From positions 1 to 12,138 of the forward strand of contig PWOI01000146.1 of assembly GCA_003557485.1 (NCBI GenBank): a stretch of 12,138 nt of DNA, in the 5' to 3' direction. This DNA comes from Elusimicrobiota bacterium. GTDB lineage: Bacteria; CG03; SLGR01; PWQF01. How positions within the stretch are numbered: position 1 is the stretch's first letter; each line of letters opens with the position of its first letter. The position numbers and the translations under genes were made by a program. The notes under the pieces were generated by a model. The model made no database searches. It was not told where the DNA came from and saw only the letters and a list, made by a program, of their open reading frames with translations. This document shows positions 373-7,799 of the stretch, in pieces.

Positions 373-750
373 ATGGATGTTAAAAAGAATAAACTTACTG
401 AAGAAGAAAAGAGGGTGATTATAAATAAAGGTACGGAAGCTCCGTTTACCGGGGAGTATCTAAATAACATAGAAAAAGGCTTTTATTTATGCCGGCAATG
501 TGATGCTCCGCTATACCATTCAAAAGACAAGTTCAAATCCGGGTGCGGATGGCCCAGTTTTGATGATGAAATACCTGAAGCGGTGAGAAAAGGCCCGGAT
601 GCAGATGGGTTCCGGACAGAAATTACCTGCGCCCGCTGCGGAGGGCATTTGGGTCATCTTTTTTTAGGTGAAGCTCTAACTCCTAAAAATGTCCGTCATT
701 GTGTTAATTCTATATCACTGAAGTTTGTTACGGATAAAAACAATGATTAA
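373..750 (+). CDS. msrB: Peptide-methionine (R)-S-oxide reductase MsrB
   Basis: Reduces methionine-R-sulfoxide in damaged proteins, normally in the cytoplasm with thioredoxin as electron donor. This is a complete 125-residue single-domain SelR protein. The zinc-binding pairs are C40/C43 (CRQC) and C86/C89 (CARC). The catalytic Cys is C110 in RHCVNS, where the usual form is RYCIN, and C58 in GCGWPSF is the likely resolving Cys. HLGHLF is also conserved. An in-frame ATG at 325 would add 16 residues with no family match, so I chose the ATG at 373, where the normal LTEEEKR start region follows at once. Neither start has a good Shine-Dalgarno site; a TATGAT at 361-366 raises the possibility of a leaderless message. 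The gene overlaps msrA by 8 nt. Confidence 0.95.
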
Positions 751-1231
751 AAAAATTGTTTTGGCCGGTGGATGTTTTTGGGGTATGCAGGATCTTTTCC
801 GCAAAAAAGACGGAGTCCTGCAGACCCGTGTTGGATACACCGGGGGAAAGAACTCAGATCCGACTTATGAAAATCATCCGGGACACGCCGAAGCTGTAGA
901 GGTTGATTACGATGACCGGGTGACATCATATAAAGAGCTTCTCGATTTTTTCTTTCGCATTCATGACCCTACAACATTAAACAGGCAGGGCAACGATATA
1001 GGCAGTTCATACCGCTCGGCAATTTTTTACGGCAATGAAGAAGAACGCAAACAGGCTGAAGATTTTATTAAAATAGTTAATGATTCGGGCAGATGGCAGA
1101 ATCCTGTTGTCACAACACTGGAGCCGCTAAATGTATTTTACCGCGCCGAAAAATACCACCAGGATTACCTTAAGAATAATCCGGGAGGTTATACCTGCCA
1201 TAAAATAAGGTTTCCCGGGTATAAAGGTTGA
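743..1231 (+). CDS. msrA: Peptide-methionine (S)-S-oxide reductase MsrA
   Basis: Reduces methionine-S-sulfoxide, complementing the R-specific MsrB encoded just upstream. The 162-residue protein has the MsrA signature GGCFWG with catalytic C11, HAEAVEV with the conserved Glu at residue 50, the [12 protein letters not shown] segment (74-85) and YHQDYL near 138-143. A C-terminal Cys at 152 (GYTCHK) is the likely recycling Cys. Length and motif order are normal. A TTG at 725 is in frame, but the ATG at 743 places the catalytic motif at the usual distance from the N-terminus. The start codon lies inside the last codons of msrB (8-nt overlap, no clear ribosome site), so translation is probably coupled. 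Separate adjacent msrB and msrA genes, rather than a fused MsrAB, are common in bacteria. Confidence 0.96.
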
Positions 1232-1289: not shown

Positions 1290-1862
1290 ATGCTGATAGT
1301 ATATTCTCATCCTAACAGGGAAGGCCATTGCGGCTTTATTCTTTCGGCTCTGGAAAAGAATCTTAAAGAGAGAGAGATTAAATATGATATAGTTGATTTA
1401 TACAGGGAAAATTTCGGTCCGGTTATGAATCCTGCCGAACATTATACCTCAGGCCACAGGGAAATTGCTCCCGAGGTTCTTAAAATACAGGATAAAATCA
1501 GGGATTCAAAAATAATTGTTTTTATTTATCCAACCTGGTGGCAGAATGTTCCTTCTATACTTAAGGGTTTTATAGACAGGGTTTTTACCCCGCATTTTGC
1601 CTACAAATACAAGGGGAAGATTCCAAGAGGGCTGCTGAAAGACAAGAAGGCGCTGATACTTACAAGTACGGGAGCTCCCAGGATTCTTACAAAAATAACT
1701 TCCGGAGACAGGAGCGTAAAAGTCGTTAAAAAAGATATACTTAAATTCTGCGGTATAAAGTCAAAAGCTTTTGTCGTAGATAAAGCTTTGAAGCTTACAG
1801 ATTCCCAGGAAAAAAAGATAGAAAGAAAAGTGGAGCTTGCAGTAAAATATTTAATTAAATAA
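1290..1862 (+). CDS. NAD(P)H oxidoreductase, flavodoxin-like fold
   Basis: A 190-residue soluble flavoprotein of the Flavodoxin_2 family (NQO1, MdaB and KefF relatives), which typically carry out two-electron reduction of quinones or other acceptors with FMN or FAD and NAD(P)H. The start MLIVYSHPNREGHC is the first strand plus phosphate-binding loop. The YPTWWQNVPSILKGFIDRVF segment (80-99) and STGAP (126-130) are the family's flavin-contact regions. The start is supported by AAAGGAG at 1275-1281, 8 nt before the ATG. It lies 58 nt after msrA and 23 nt before uvsE on the same strand, which fits a redox-stress operon. The actual substrate cannot be told from sequence. An azoreductase or a potassium-efflux ancillary role is possible, but no KefB or KefC gene is nearby. 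Confidence 0.85.
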   Translation: MLIVYSHPNREGHCGFILSALEKNLKEREIKYDIVDLYRENFGPVMNPAEHYTSGHREIAPEVLKIQDKIRDSKIIVFIYPTWWQNVPSILKGFIDRVFTPHFAYKYKGKIPRGLLKDKKALILTSTGAPRILTKITSGDRSVKVVKKDILKFCGIKSKAFVVDKALKLTDSQEKKIERKVELAVKYLIK

Positions 1863-1885: not shown

Positions 1886-2773
1886 ATGAAAATCGGATAC
1901 CCATGTATAAATAATTCAATAGGCTGTAAATCTTCAAGAACTTTCAGGTTAAGAAACTACAGCCCGGAAAAACTTGTAGAAATAGTAAGTGGAAATCTTG
2001 AGTGCCTTCACAGGACACTGCTTTTCAATATTGAAAACAGTATTTTTTCCTTCCGGATCACTTCTGATCTTGTGCCTTTTGCCTCGCATAAGGTATGCAG
2101 CTATAACTGGGGGAAACATTTCCGGGAAGATTTTAAAAGACTAGGGGATCTTATAAGTAAAAATAAAATAAGAATATCAATGCATCCGGACCAGTTTGTA
2201 ATATTAAACGCCCAAAAAGAAGATATAAAATTTAACAGCATCAGAGAACTTCAGTACCACGCCAGTGTAATGGACCTTATGGGTTTGGATCAAAAGGCAA
2301 AAATACAGATTCATGTCGGAGGTGTGTACGGGGATAAAAAAACCTCTATAGAAAGATTTATAAAAGTTTACAAGACTCTGGATAATAAAATCAAAAACAG
2401 GCTTGTAATAGAGAATGACGAGAAAAGTTATAAGGCTTCCGACTGTCTTTATATAAGTTCTAAAACCGGCATTCCTGTGCTTTTTGATTATTTTCACCAC
2501 AGATTAAATAATAACGGGGAAGATACCGGAGAACTTATTAAGACAATTGTTTCAACCTGGAAAAGGAAGGACGGTCCGGCTATGATGGATTATTCCAGCC
2601 AACTTCACGGGGAGCGGCGGGGAAGGCACGCAATGAAGATTGATTTAACTGATTTTAAAAAGTTCCTCAACATAGTTAAAGATAGTGACGCGGATATAAT
2701 GCTGGAAATAAAAGACAAGGAAAAGAGCGCCATAGAAGCGGTTAAAATTCTGAAAAAAGAAAAGTTAATTTAA
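1886..2773 (+). CDS. uvsE: UV damage endonuclease UvsE/UVDE
   Basis: A TIM-barrel endonuclease that nicks DNA immediately 5' of UV photoproducts and some other lesions, starting excision repair independently of UvrABC. The 295-residue length is typical. The metal-ligand set known from the Thermus enzyme maps almost residue for residue: H68, H100 (MHPDQ), H143 (QIHVGG), E176 (VIENDE), D201 and H204 (FDYFHH), H241 (QLHGE), H248 (RHA) and E274 (LEIKD). Q103 in MHPDQF matches the lesion-probing Gln. All catalytic positions are present, so the enzyme should be active. The gene follows the oxidoreductase by 23 nt without a recognisable Shine-Dalgarno site and is followed by a weak hairpin, suggesting it ends the first operon. 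The N-terminal MKIGYPCIN is a normal family start. Confidence 0.95.
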   Translation: MKIGYPCINNSIGCKSSRTFRLRNYSPEKLVEIVSGNLECLHRTLLFNIENSIFSFRITSDLVPFASHKVCSYNWGKHFREDFKRLGDLISKNKIRISMHPDQFVILNAQKEDIKFNSIRELQYHASVMDLMGLDQKAKIQIHVGGVYGDKKTSIERFIKVYKTLDNKIKNRLVIENDEKSYKASDCLYISSKTGIPVLFDYFHHRLNNNGEDTGELIKTIVSTWKRKDGPAMMDYSSQLHGERRGRHAMKIDLTDFKKFLNIVKDSDADIMLEIKDKEKSAIEAVKILKKEKLI

Positions 2774-2852: not shown

Positions 2853-3419
2853 ATGAGAATAGATATAAGGTTTTTAATATTTGGATTACTAACAATTTTC
2901 TGGCTGGCAGAATTTATAGTTTTTCCCTCTCCAAAAAACGGCACAGGCAGAGGGAATATAAGTTTTTACCTGGTCCTTGCGGGAATAGTTCTTTCTATCT
3001 CTTTTTCTGTCATAATGAATCTAAGTGAAAAGGGATTGATAACAGGAAATCCAGGAGAAGTGTTACGCACCTCTTCGCTTTTTCTATATTTATATGGAGT
3101 ATTTCTGAGATATAGGTCCTCAAAACTTCTTGGTAAAAATTTTTCAAGGAATATAAAAGCAGAAAGAGAACAGGCTCTCGTTTCAAGTGGCCCTTACAGA
3201 ATTTTCAGGCACCCTTTATATATAGCTTTGATGATTTTAGTTGTATCAGTATCGATGTTTCTTCAAAGTTTTCCGGGGATAATCTTTTCCCTTGTAGTAA
3301 TGGCGGTTGTTTTAGGGATAAGGATTAATGAAGAAGAAAAAATAATGGAGGATAAGCTGGGAGAAAGATATACACGCTGGAAAGATAAAAGGTATATTCT
3401 TCTTCCTTTTATATTCTAA
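2853..3419 (+). CDS. Isoprenylcysteine carboxyl methyltransferase-like membrane protein
   Basis: A 188-residue integral membrane protein of the ICMT/PEMT-like SAM-dependent methyltransferase superfamily. Hydrophobic segments lie near residues 5-24, 36-55, 72-87, 122-138 and 141-157. The SAM-binding C-terminal core is clear: GPYRIFRHPLY (113-123), the acidic EEE (160-162) and the LGERYTRW segment (169-176). In eukaryotes this fold methylates a prenyl-protein carboxylate; bacterial members are mostly of unknown substrate. AGGTGAT (2843-2849) just before the ATG is a good ribosome site. The stop overlaps the crtP start as TAATG, so the two are translationally coupled. Being first in a C30 carotenoid operon suggests it may methylate the carotenoid carboxylic acid; this is inference. 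A lipid N- or O-methyltransferase with another substrate is the alternative. Confidence 0.8.
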   Translation: MRIDIRFLIFGLLTIFWLAEFIVFPSPKNGTGRGNISFYLVLAGIVLSISFSVIMNLSEKGLITGNPGEVLRTSSLFLYLYGVFLRYRSSKLLGKNFSRNIKAEREQALVSSGPYRIFRHPLYIALMILVVSVSMFLQSFPGIIFSLVVMAVVLGIRINEEEKIMEDKLGERYTRWKDKRYILLPFIF

Positions 3420-4897
3420 TGAATAAAAAAATAGTTGTAATAGGAGGTGGTTTGGGAGGCATATCTACGGCTGTAACTCTCAGAAATACCGGCTATGAAG
3501 TTGAGCTTTACGAAAAGAACAGCCATCTTGGAGGAAAGCTTAACGTACTCAAAAAAGAGGGGTTCTCTTTTGACCTCGGGCCTTCCATACTTACCTTTCC
3601 GCATATATTTGAAAAGCTTTTTAAAGAAGCCGGGAAAAATATGGAAGACTATTTAAAAATTGTTAAGCCCCGGATAGACTGGCGCTGTTTCTTTGAAGAC
3701 GGGGAAAAAATTGATCTTCTGCAGGATATAGAAGAAATAAAAGAATCCAGCACCTGCCTTTCAGATGAGGATATTGAAGGCCTCCGAGAATTTCTTAAAT
3801 ATTCCGAAAAACTTTATGATGTAGTAAAACAAGGTTATTTTGATAAGGGTGTGGATACATTTTCCCAGGCTTTAAAAACCTATGGCTTATGGAGAAGCTT
3901 GTCTGGGTTTGATATTTTTTCAACAATGCATCAGGGGGTGGCAAGGCATATAAAAAACAGGCATCTCTGCCACGCAATTGATTTCTTTATCAAGTATGTA
4001 GGTTCTTCTCCCTACCGGGCGCCGGCTGTTCTTAATATGATTCCTTACGGTCAGTTTAAATTCGGACTCTGGTATGTAGAGGGAGGTATGTATAACCTGG
4101 CGCTGGGCCTGAAAAAACTGATGGAAGATACAGGCGTTAAAATAAATTTAAATACAAAGATAGAAAAACTTAAAATTACAGGAGGGAAAATATCGGAAGC
4201 ATTTACTTCCGAGGGGGCAAAGATAAAGGGAGACATATTTGTCAGCAATATGGAGGTTGTTCCCGCATACAGTACTCTTACGGTTGAAGATGAGAAGTTT
4301 CTTAAAAAATACAATAAGTTCGAACCGGCCTGCTCGGGCCTGGTTCTTCACCTTGGCACAGATAAAGAGTTTCCTGAGCTTGCGCATCATAATTTCTTTT
4401 TCTCCGGGGATCCGGAAAAGCATTTTGATGATGTATTCGTCAAAAAAATACTTCCCCGGGACCCGACAATATATCTTGTGGCCCCCAAACGCACCGATAA
4501 TTCGGTGGCCCCCGAAGGCTGCGATAATATAAAAATACTGCCTCATATACCATATTTGCAGGATAACCCTTTCTCAAGGGAAGATTATATGCTTTTGCGG
4601 GAAAGGGTACTTGATAAACTCCAAAGGATGGGAATGAAAGACCTTAAGAAAAGTATTGTATTGGAAGATATGTGGACTCCCGAGGATATTGAAAAAAACT
4701 ATCTCTCCAATCGCGGCGCTATTTACGGCGTTGTTTCGGATAAAAAGAAAAACATGGGGTTCAAGGCGCCAAAAAGAAGCAGAAAATATCCCAATCTCTA
4801 CTTTGTCGGTGGCAGCGTAAACCCGGGAGGAGGCATGCCTATGGTAACCTTATCCGGACAGCAGGTTGCCGGGTTTATAAAAGAAGATAATGATTGA
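3419..4897 (+). CDS. crtP: 4,4'-diaponeurosporene/diapolycopene oxygenase CrtP (CrtNb)
   Basis: An FAD-dependent CrtI-family enzyme that oxidises the terminal methyl groups of C30 carotenoids to aldehydes. The 492 residues closely resemble my recollection of Staphylococcus CrtP throughout: the N-terminal dinucleotide fold VIGGGLGGIS (7-16) and LYEKNSHLGGK (30-40), FDLGPSILT, FIKYVGSSPY, GLWYVEGGM, SNMEVVP, LAHHNFFF, WTPEDIEKNYLSNRGAIYGVV, and the C-terminal FAD motif FVGGSVNPGGGMPMVTLSGQ. These markers separate CrtP from plain desaturases. It starts on the stop of the methyltransferase gene (TAATG) with no Shine-Dalgarno site and overlaps aldH by 8 nt. The enzyme should act at the cytoplasmic membrane on lipid-phase substrate. 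Whether it oxidises one or both ends of the carotenoid cannot be told from sequence. Confidence 0.93.
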   Translation: MNKKIVVIGGGLGGISTAVTLRNTGYEVELYEKNSHLGGKLNVLKKEGFSFDLGPSILTFPHIFEKLFKEAGKNMEDYLKIVKPRIDWRCFFEDGEKIDLLQDIEEIKESSTCLSDEDIEGLREFLKYSEKLYDVVKQGYFDKGVDTFSQALKTYGLWRSLSGFDIFSTMHQGVARHIKNRHLCHAIDFFIKYVGSSPYRAPAVLNMIPYGQFKFGLWYVEGGMYNLALGLKKLMEDTGVKINLNTKIEKLKITGGKISEAFTSEGAKIKGDIFVSNMEVVPAYSTLTVEDEKFLKKYNKFEPACSGLVLHLGTDKEFPELAHHNFFFSGDPEKHFDDVFVKKILPRDPTIYLVAPKRTDNSVAPEGCDNIKILPHIPYLQDNPFSREDYMLLRERVLDKLQRMGMKDLKKSIVLEDMWTPEDIEKNYLSNRGAIYGVVSDKKKNMGFKAPKRSRKYPNLYFVGGSVNPGGGMPMVTLSGQQVAGFIKEDND

Positions 4898-6260
4898 AAA
4901 TATAGTAAATTCCCAAAAGAAATATTTTAAACAGGGAAAAACGCGCAATATAGATTTTCGTATAGATAATCTTAAAAAACTGAAATCTGCCATACTTAGA
5001 AGCGAAGATAATATAATGGAGGCAATATCCCGTGATATGGGAAGGCCCGCTACAGAGATATATACAAGCGAAATATATACGGTTATATACGAGCTTGATC
5101 TTTTTATTAAAAAATTAAAAAAATGGACAAGGCTCCGAAAGGTAAAGACACCTCTGGCTTTAAAACCGGCCCAAAGCCGCATTTTTTTAGAGCCCCTGGG
5201 TACGGTTTTAATACTGTCTCCCTGGAATTATCCTTTCCAGCTGTCATTTGCTCCCCTTATAGGAGCTTTGGCAGCCGGAAACTGTATTGTTATTAAACCC
5301 TCTGAGATATCCTCAAATACGTCAGGGGTGATAACCCGAATTATAAATGAAAATTTCAGCGGTGATTACATATACTGCGTTGAAGGCGGCTCCGATATTG
5401 CAGAGGAATTGACAAAGCAGCCATTTGACCATATCTTTTTTACCGGCAGCGGTGAGATAGGGAGGGAAGTTCTTAAAAACGCAGCTTTTAACCTGGTTCC
5501 CGCAACCCTGGAACTGGGAGGTAAATGCCCCTGCATAGTGACCGGTGGCGGGGATATAAAAAGAATTGCCAGGAGAATAGCCTGGGGAAAATTTTTTAAC
5601 GCCGGCCAGACCTGTATGGCTCCGGATTATATTTTAGTACACAAATCGGTTAAAGAAGAGCTGTTAAAAGAAATAAGATTATGTATAAAAAATTTTTACG
5701 GTCAGGACCCTTCAAAGAGCGGAGATTACGGCAAAATAATAAACCGTAAACATTTTGACCGGATATTAAAACTTGTAGAGGGTAAAAATATTGCTGACTT
5801 TAAATTTAACCGGGAAGATCTCTATATTTCCCCTACGGTAATAGATGACGTTTCCCGGGATGATGATATTATGAAAAACGAGATATTCGGCCCGATTCTT
5901 CCTGTGCTGGAGTACGACAATATGGATGAGGTTACCGATTACCTGGCTCTGCAACCCACCCCGCTCAATATTTACCTTTTCACTTCAAATAAAGGAAAAA
6001 TAAAGAAAATAATAGAAAATACAAGATCGGGGTCAGTTACAGTAAACGATGTTATTGTGCAGGCGTTTTCCCCCTATTTGCCTTTCGGGGGTATTGGGGA
6101 GAGCGGTATGGGAAAATACAGGGGAATGAACTCCCTTTTAACTTTTTCAAACAGAAAAAGCATTATGAAAAGAAGTTTTTTTATGGATTTAAGTTTCAGG
6201 TATCCTCCCTATAAAACGGCTATAAGCAGGTTAAAGAAGTATTTAAAAATATTGAGGTAA
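4890..6260 (+). CDS. aldH: Carotenoid-operon aldehyde dehydrogenase (ALDH3 type)
   Basis: An NAD(P)-dependent aldehyde dehydrogenase of 456 residues, the compact class-3 length. Catalytic residues are intact: N113 in SPWNYPF, E208 in LELGG, nucleophile C242 in GQTCMAPDY and E331 in NEIFGP. The cofactor loop is FFTGSGEIG (183-191). The C-terminal FRYPPY (436-441) and a basic amphipathic tail are typical of ALDH3 and AlkH-like enzymes that act on long hydrophobic aldehydes at membranes. Lying between crtP and crtN, it most likely oxidises the C30 carotenoid aldehyde made by CrtP to the acid, as AldH does in staphyloxanthin synthesis. It overlaps crtP by 8 nt and ends 3 nt before crtN. A general fatty-aldehyde role is possible but less likely in this operon. 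Confidence 0.9.
   Translation: MIENIVNSQKKYFKQGKTRNIDFRIDNLKKLKSAILRSEDNIMEAISRDMGRPATEIYTSEIYTVIYELDLFIKKLKKWTRLRKVKTPLALKPAQSRIFLEPLGTVLILSPWNYPFQLSFAPLIGALAAGNCIVIKPSEISSNTSGVITRIINENFSGDYIYCVEGGSDIAEELTKQPFDHIFFTGSGEIGREVLKNAAFNLVPATLELGGKCPCIVTGGGDIKRIARRIAWGKFFNAGQTCMAPDYILVHKSVKEELLKEIRLCIKNFYGQDPSKSGDYGKIINRKHFDRILKLVEGKNIADFKFNREDLYISPTVIDDVSRDDDIMKNEIFGPILPVLEYDNMDEVTDYLALQPTPLNIYLFTSNKGKIKKIIENTRSGSVTVNDVIVQAFSPYLPFGGIGESGMGKYRGMNSLLTFSNRKSIMKRSFFMDLSFRYPPYKTAISRLKKYLKILR
6254..6258 (+). promoter_or_regulatory. Ribosome binding site of crtN inside the aldH end
   Basis: GAGGT lies in the last codons of aldH, 5 nt before the crtN ATG at 6264. It fixes the crtN start and allows re-initiation right after aldH ends. 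Confidence 0.7.
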
Positions 6261-6263
6261 AAT

Positions 6264-7799
6264 ATGAAAAATAAAAAAATTGTAATAGTAGGAGCAGGTC
6301 CGGGCGGCCTTACCATCGGAATGATTTTAGCGCACCGCGGGGCTGATGTTGAAATTTTTGAAAAAGAGGACCGCCCGGGGGGAAGAAACAGGGATATAAC
6401 TCTGGGGGATTTTAAGTTCGATACGGGGCCGACCTTTCTTATGATGAAATATGTTCTGGAGGAAATGTTTCAGGAAACAGGCCGCCGCGCTTCTGATTAT
6501 ATGGAGTTTGTAAAACTTGATCCTTTCTACAGGTTACAGTTTCCTGATAAAAGATTTTATCCTTCCGGAAATATGGAAAAGATGAAAGATCATATATCGG
6601 ATATTTTTCCCGGTAACGAAAAAGGGTTTGAAAAATTTATGAAAAGAGAGGGGAAGCGTTTTGAGAGCCTCATCCCCTGCCTGCAGAAGGATTACGCAAA
6701 ACTGCGGGCTTTCCTGGCTCCCATATTTCTCAAGGCTGCGCCCCGGCTAGCAGTAGGCAGAACTCTCTACGGGAACCTGGGAAGGTATTATGATTCAGAT
6801 GAACTTAAACTGGCTTTCACTTTTCAGTCAAAATACCTGGGCATGTCTCCCTGGGACTGCCCCGCGCTCTTTACTATTCTTTCCTATATGGAGTACAAGT
6901 ATAATATTTATCATGTTACGGGCGGGCTCAACATGATATCAAAAGCAATGGAAAAGGTCTTTAAGGAGGAAGGGGGAAAGGTTCATTATAACTCCGAGGT
7001 AAAGAGAGTTATAAATGAAGGAAGGAAGGTAACTGGAATTGAACTTAAAGACGGAAGAAAAGTACCAGCTGACGAGGTGATAATAAATGCAGATTTCGGG
7101 TATGCGGCTACAAATCTTATGCCCGTTGAAAAGCTTAAAAAATGGTCACCGGAAAAACTCCAAAAGAAAAATTTTTCCTGCGGAACGTTTATGCTTTACC
7201 TTGGGCTGGATAAGAAATACGAAACTGTAAACCACCACAATATTATATTTGCTGACAACTATAAGGATAATGTTGAGACTATGTTTAATGAACATAAAAT
7301 GACGGATGATTTTTCATTTTATATTCAGAACCCCTCCGTTACAGACCCCACCCTTGCTCCCGAAGGAAAGTCGGCTGTATATGTTCTTGTTCCTGTGCCG
7401 AACAACAGAAGCGGAATAGACTGGAATAAAGAAGGTCCGCTTTTCAGGGAAAAGGTTATAGACAAGATAATTCAAAAGACAGAGATGAAGGATATAAGGA
7501 AACATATAGTAGCGGAAAAAGTGACGACACCCAGAGAGTGGGAAGATAATTATAACGTATATATTGCCGCCGAATTCAACCTGGGGCACGACCTTAACCA
7601 GATGCTCTATTTCCGGCCCCATAACAAGTTTGAAGAATTAGAAAATCTTTATCTTACCGGCGGAGGAACTCATCCGGGAAGCGGACTTCCTACAATATAT
7701 GAGTCCGGCAGAATCTCTGCCAACCTGATTTCTAAAAAATACGGGCTCCCATATAAAAAGCCTTCTTTTGACCCCAAGAAGATTCTTGAAAATGCATAA
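6264..7799 (+). CDS. crtN: 4,4'-diapophytoene (dehydrosqualene) desaturase CrtN
   Basis: An FAD-dependent CrtI-family desaturase of 511 residues that introduces conjugated double bonds into the C30 backbone 4,4'-diapophytoene. The N-terminal fold has VGAGPGGL (9-16) and FEKEDRPGGR (32-41); the C-terminal FAD motif is LTGGGTHPGSGLPTIYES. Long internal stretches such as FDTGPTFLMM, FQSKYLGMSPWDCPALFT, FMLYLGLDK, DDFSFYIQN and LYFRPHNKFEELEN resemble my recollection of Methylomonas-type CrtN more than staphylococcal CrtN or C40 CrtI. It is last in the operon, 3 nt after aldH, with GAGGT as ribosome site. It supplies the substrate for CrtP. The synthase CrtM (or an Hpn-type route) that would make the precursor is not in this window. 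C40 phytoene desaturation cannot be fully excluded, but the CrtP and AldH partners argue for C30. Confidence 0.9.
   Translation: MKNKKIVIVGAGPGGLTIGMILAHRGADVEIFEKEDRPGGRNRDITLGDFKFDTGPTFLMMKYVLEEMFQETGRRASDYMEFVKLDPFYRLQFPDKRFYPSGNMEKMKDHISDIFPGNEKGFEKFMKREGKRFESLIPCLQKDYAKLRAFLAPIFLKAAPRLAVGRTLYGNLGRYYDSDELKLAFTFQSKYLGMSPWDCPALFTILSYMEYKYNIYHVTGGLNMISKAMEKVFKEEGGKVHYNSEVKRVINEGRKVTGIELKDGRKVPADEVIINADFGYAATNLMPVEKLKKWSPEKLQKKNFSCGTFMLYLGLDKKYETVNHHNIIFADNYKDNVETMFNEHKMTDDFSFYIQNPSVTDPTLAPEGKSAVYVLVPVPNNRSGIDWNKEGPLFREKVIDKIIQKTEMKDIRKHIVAEKVTTPREWEDNYNVYIAAEFNLGHDLNQMLYFRPHNKFEELENLYLTGGGTHPGSGLPTIYESGRISANLISKKYGLPYKKPSFDPKKILENA

Follow-up and report, generated by a model that had tools for sequence, protein, structure and literature searches.

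What does a small membrane methyltransferase do at the head of a bacterial carotenoid operon? The question is raised by contig PWOI01000146.1 of an uncultured Elusimicrobiota bacterium (assembly GCA_003557485.1), the entire length of which (12,138 nucleotides) was analyzed and is referred to as the window. The window corresponds to contig C26 of a 2.07 Mb metagenome-assembled genome (MAG; G000) that is 87% complete. Four open reading frames (ORFs) on the same strand encode proteins of 188, 492, 456, and 511 amino acids (aa), namely: an isoprenylcysteine carboxyl methyltransferase (ICMT)-like protein, CrtP, AldH, and CrtN. The operon probably directs synthesis of a C30 carotenoid acid, the carboxyl group of which is then methylated within the membrane.

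The stop codon of the methyltransferase gene (TAA, 3417–3419) shares one nucleotide with the crtP ATG at 3419 (TAATG, 3417–3421). The crtP and aldH genes overlap by 8 nt (4890–4897; aldH ATG at 4890), and aldH, ending at 6260, is separated from the crtN ATG at 6264 by 3 nt (6261–6263). These coordinates match exactly the couplings described in an initial annotation of the window. Pfam and NCBIfam profiles matching the operon included PF04140 ICMT (8.7e-14), PEMT (7e-12), and Aldedh (1.9e-86), while two of the proteins matched CrtI_fam TIGR02734 (1e-102 and 5e-141) and are CrtI-family flavoproteins. The gene identities and the operon are established from sequence.

An AlphaFold2 (AF2) model of the 188-aa head protein (METHYLTRANSFERASE) was built from a 24-sequence alignment (pLDDT 89.4, pTM 0.84). 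The nearest solved structures were Ma-ICMT 4a2n (Z 16.6, 3.6 Å, 184 residues) and beetle ICMT 5v7p (Z 16.3), with which the protein shares its fold, the RHPxY and EE motifs, and a membrane location; the ICMT fold proposed in the initial annotation was thus borne out. Residues R119, P121, Y123, E161, E162, and Y173 were invariant in the 24 homologs, and H120 was nearly so. The PF04140 score was 52.2 bits against a gathering cutoff of 24. As modeled, the ICMT assignment rests on fold and motif, beyond a weak Pfam match. The structure search placed the superfamily's sterol and steroid reductases below the ICMTs, and a sterol/5-alpha-reductase reading was accordingly ranked lower (Z of 9–13 vs. 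14–17; Steroid_dh under its cutoff).

The same cassette was found at two other loci, L012 and L013, which by coordinates belong to genomes G003 and G005, members of the same order as G000 and of another family. Both have the order DUF2141-ICMT-crtP-aldH-crtN-DUF523/DUF1722, with protein lengths identical to those of the window (188/492/456/511) and junctions comprising a 6-nt gap, an 8-nt overlap, and a 4-nt gap. Because order, lengths, and similar junctions are shared, the gene arrangement is not a product of chance. Identities to the window proteins (L012/L013) were 62/68% for the methyltransferase, 82/80% for CrtP, 70/76% for AldH, and 90/88% for CrtN. Among the cassette orthologs the methyltransferase is under purifying selection, with a ratio of nonsynonymous to synonymous substitution rates (NG86 dN/dS) of about 0.14–0.21.

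The three cassette methyltransferases formed one clade (support 100/98), with the nearest other sequences in the tree at a path length >3. Orthologs were confined to the cassette, which was present in three genomes belonging to two families. Across the phylum, crtN/crtP were present in 3 of 16 genomes and the methyltransferase in exactly the same three, for which the chance under random labels is 1/560 with relatedness ignored. Linkage of this clade to C30 genes, the check proposed in the initial annotation, was therefore conserved and exclusive in these three MAGs. The next-best ICMT homologs (~30% identity or less, 386 genomes), examined within their loci, included none adjoining crtP or aldH. 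ICMT matches in the plasmid collection had 22–34% identity, and no crt cluster was seen around them. In G206 (L107) an ICMT homolog follows a CrtN-like gene at a distance of 0.7 kb and was set aside; the CrtN-like gene lies on a long branch outside the clade and the pairing looks incidental. Separately, an ICMT-like domain at L043 (G005:C140) is embedded in an exceptionally long reading frame, reported as 2932 aa.

Phylogenetic analysis of 33 CrtN/CrtP/CrtI proteins placed the window CrtP within the CrtP clade (100/100) alongside Staphylococcus CrtP; it has 50% identity to S. xylosus CrtP from a crtO-P-Q-M-N plasmid cluster. For AldH, the top match among the 3360 plasmid records with a match was an S. 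aureus aldehyde dehydrogenase (44.5% identity over 99%). Residues E208 and C242, which we take to be the catalytic Glu and Cys, were invariant in the AldH alignment. The window CrtN grouped with CrtNs of squalene-route hpnCDE clusters (clade 98/92, 13 rows), and its identity was ~42% to these and only ~30% to Staphylococcus CrtN. These results uphold the C30 acid gene identities given in the initial annotation.

A single squalene/phytoene synthase (SQS_PSY) gene was found in G000, on contig C183. Its product scored 101 bits against squalene synthase TIGR01559, under the equivalog cutoff of 287. With one SQS_PSY gene only, no HpnC/HpnD pair was found in G000; HpnE was not searched for separately. 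Given the CrtP clade and a sole synthase that is squalene-synthase-like, the pathway likely builds on a C30 backbone, with either squalene or dehydrosqualene as the predicted precursor. A C40 (CrtI/CrtB) reading was rejected on the same two observations and on the lack of any CrtB over cutoff.

Contig C183 also carries a second crtN (L007:9495-12454), 78% identical to the window crtN and flanked by DUF2141 and DUF523/DUF1722. In L012 and L013 these flanking genes belong to the cassette, upstream and downstream, respectively. The C183 crtN diverges before the three cassette crtNs in the tree, and therefore crtN was duplicated, with the outer cassette genes now on C183 and not in the window.

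In the proposed pathway, farnesyl diphosphate would be joined head-to-head by the squalene-synthase-like enzyme from the other contig, and CrtN would then desaturate the C30 chain. CrtP would oxidize the terminal methyl(s) to aldehyde(s), which AldH would convert to carboxylate(s). Using S-adenosylmethionine (SAM) as methyl donor, the ICMT-fold enzyme would then methylate the carboxylate to a mono- or dimethyl 4,4'-diapocarotenoate. The product is most likely the methyl ester(s) of a 4,4'-diapocarotenoic acid, with substrate and product both predicted. We infer the methyltransferase activity, the carotenoid-acid substrate, modification of one or both ends, and a photoprotective or antioxidant use. 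At the corresponding point of the pathway, the majority of the closest CrtP clusters add glucose and a fatty acid (CrtQ/CrtO).

The CrtO acyltransferase profile (PF18927) detected G048 and G254, whereas nothing in G000, G003, or G005 (87–97% complete) exceeded the cutoff. No CrtQ ortholog was found in the same three genomes, where generic GT2 glycosyltransferases alone matched at ~1e-6 (8.7e-7 at best, in G000), compared with 5.4e-62 for the true CrtQ of G048. Most related CrtP clusters without ICMT had both a glycosyltransferase (GT) and an acyltransferase (AT): those of G048, G387, and G396, of S. xylosus, and of five alphaproteobacterial plasmids. The G254 cluster, also without ICMT, carries CrtO. 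In both trees the window group has G180 as its sister (CrtP 61%, CrtN 65%). G180 has a crtP-aldH-crtN operon with no GT/AT or ICMT nearby, in a genome without CrtO or CrtQ; G412 likewise has no such ending gene nearby. Since the G180 operon has neither ending, the methyltransferase appears to be an addition to an acid operon that already lacked glycosyl and acyl transfer, which these gene contents suggest as the simplest history. The swap for CrtQ and CrtO put forward in the initial annotation therefore holds in part: both are absent where the ICMT is present, as it had claimed, but the sister operon suggests that the replacement was not direct.

Further features were observed in other C30 clusters. 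A class I SAM methyltransferase lies between crtN and crtP in a squalene-route C30 cluster on a Microvirga ossetica plasmid (L141:4755-5837) and is a candidate for the unknown methyltransferase postulated for Methylobacteriaceae. A sulfotransferase gene inside the C30 crtN-crtP-AT-GT-aldH cluster of a Palleronia plasmid (L137:9373-10482) suggests a sulfated carotenoid glycoside as product. In G412, the aldH next to crtN appears to be split into two ORFs (L147:10813-12093), perhaps by a frameshift or assembly error.

The staphyloxanthin pathway (CrtM, CrtN, CrtP, AldH, CrtQ, CrtO) resembles the window in its CrtP, an AldH-like enzyme, and a C30 acid as likely intermediate. It differs in that the window genome is without CrtO or a CrtQ ortholog, has a CrtN of another subfamily and a synthase that appears squalene-synthase-like and not CrtM-like, and keeps aldH in the operon with an ICMT-fold enzyme at the head. 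Alphaproteobacterial squalene-route clusters (hpnCDE, crtN, crtP, AT, GT, aldH, DUF2141) share the CrtN subfamily, CrtP, and AldH with the window and DUF2141 with the relatives' cassettes. In contrast to these clusters, AT and GT2 are replaced by nothing or by ICMT, and one squalene-synthase-like gene stands in place of the HpnC/D pair. BpsB, of a type III polyketide lipid operon, is also ICMT-like. SrsB is an ICMT-type enzyme annotated in an alkylresorcinol operon (PMC6669644), and lipid O-methylation by the ICMT fold therefore has precedent. Both are small methyltransferases in lipid operons, whereas their substrates are phenolic or pyrone hydroxyls and not a carotenoid carboxylate.

Planococcus and Halobacillus are known to contain methyl-esterified C30 carotenoic acids, for which no methyltransferase gene is named in PMC8502411, PMC8933910, or PMC7764019. 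For Planococcus methyl 5-glucosyl-5,6-dihydro-4,4'-diapolycopenoate the methyl-ester gene was left open (PMC8502411), the O-methyl ester group was elsewhere ascribed to CrtP (PMC8933910), and a third report mentions no methyltransferase (PMC7764019). Like these pigments, the predicted product of the window is a methyl-esterified C30 carotenoic acid; the pigments differ in bearing glucose at the other end. For Methylobacterium extorquens PA1, 4,4'-diapolycopenedioic acid was proposed to be the substrate of an "unknown methyltransferase" (PMC10448405). Searches of open-licence PMC papers turned up no ICMT-type enzyme in a carotenoid pathway, in line with the initial annotation, which knew of none.

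Several observations weigh against a carotenoid carboxyl methyltransferase. The head protein scored 69.6 bits against NF040696 (protein-S-isoprenylcysteine O-methyltransferase, the true ICMT), short of the equivalog cutoff of 160; it differs from 4a2n and 5v7p in identity (~22%), and no isoprenylcysteine substrate is implied. The methyltransferase is the least conserved of the four genes (62–68% vs. 70–90%), and the linkage was found in three MAGs of one order only, two in one family. ICMT/PEMT-fold enzymes have diverse substrates, among them lipid phosphate, thiols, phospholipids, and phenolic lipids, so the carotenoid substrate is a prediction. The ending-free G180 operon also makes a free acid a possible end product. 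Action on another membrane lipid or a quinone-type compound, with the gene in the operon only through co-regulation with the stress locus (msrB-msrA-oxidoreductase-uvsE-crt), would fit stress and repair genes that are not carotenoid-specific and a fold that is promiscuous in substrate class (LmtA and MddA were weak relatives in the NCBIfam search). It is nonetheless unlikely: the methyltransferase is translationally coupled to crtP, tracks crtN/crtP through the phylum, and remains beside crtP-aldH-crtN in L012, where the stress genes are absent and a transposase lies upstream.

A protein with the fold but no carotenoid methyltransferase activity, in which case the pathway would end in the free diapocarotenoic acid or in a conjugate formed through genes elsewhere in the genome, is improbable, as every superfamily-invariant residue is kept, dN/dS is low, and the reductases of the fold score below the ICMTs. 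In its favor are the G180 operon, other GT2 genes in these genomes, and Bacillus firmus, reported with free 4,4'-diapolycopenedioic acid in a reference given in PMC9598406. O-methylation of a hydroxylated carotenoid end, like that by CrtF in C40 pathways, draws on the oxygenated intermediates of CrtP-type reactions and on SrsB with its phenolic lipid operon, but the three cassettes have no hydratase or hydroxylase gene and AldH pushes aldehyde to acid, making this quite improbable as well. On balance, we favor the ICMT-fold enzyme as a dedicated carotenoid carboxyl methyltransferase, recruited to crtP-aldH-crtN and giving a methyl ester ending instead of acyl-glucose. Overall, the anatomy and linkage of the operon are well supported and its known distribution is narrow; it probably forms a methyl ester.

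Table 1. Features of the window, with positions, strand, and the evidence for each.
Feature	Position	Strand	Evidence
ICMT-fold integral membrane methyltransferase, 188 aa, proposed carotenoid carboxyl O-methyltransferase	2853..3419	+	PF04140, AF2 model, clade
RHPLY motif, residues 119-123, conserved SAM-side superfamily motif	3207..3221	+	24-homolog alignment; common to 4a2n
EE pair, residues 161-162, of C-terminal motif EE..(x10)..Y173	3333..3338	+	24-homolog alignment
crtP, 4,4'-diaponeurosporene/diapolycopene terminal oxidase, 492 aa	3419..4897	+	Identity and CrtP clade
aldH, carotenal dehydrogenase, class-3-like ALDH, 456 aa	4890..6260	+	Aldedh profile, plasmid-collection match, E208/C242
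crtN, C30 desaturase of squalene-route type, 511 aa	6264..7799	+	Cassette identity and clade
msrB-like gene, likely ATG at 373	373..750	+	ORF and synteny with L013
msrA-like gene	743..1231	+	ORF; 79.6% to L013 ortholog, same order
Flavodoxin-like NAD(P)H oxidoreductase	1290..1862	+	PF02525 2e-33
uvsE/uvde UV damage endonuclease	1886..2773	+	TIGR00629 4.8e-57; 79.2% to L013 ortholog

Directly upstream of the carotenoid operon (373–2773), msrB, msrA, the oxidoreductase gene, and uvsE form an oxidative/UV stress neighborhood whose order is kept in L013. A promoter/terminator scan between uvsE and the methyltransferase gene revealed no distinctive site, and Rfam and PADLOC scans gave no match. C30 carotenoid clusters from several phyla repeatedly have a DUF2141 protein as neighbor (L137, L139, L140, L066, L145, L146, L012, and L013). 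At NCBI, L012 is labeled Candidatus Sumerlaeota and L013 Elusimicrobia; they belong to one order, so at least one phylum label is wrong. Isolate names of the relatives suggest soda-lake sediments.

The operon offers a candidate new ending for a staphyloxanthin-like pathway, and a carotenoid carboxylate is likely a new substrate class for the ICMT fold. It is also a compact, expressible candidate for the esterifying gene that the cited literature leaves open, assigns to CrtP, or calls unknown.

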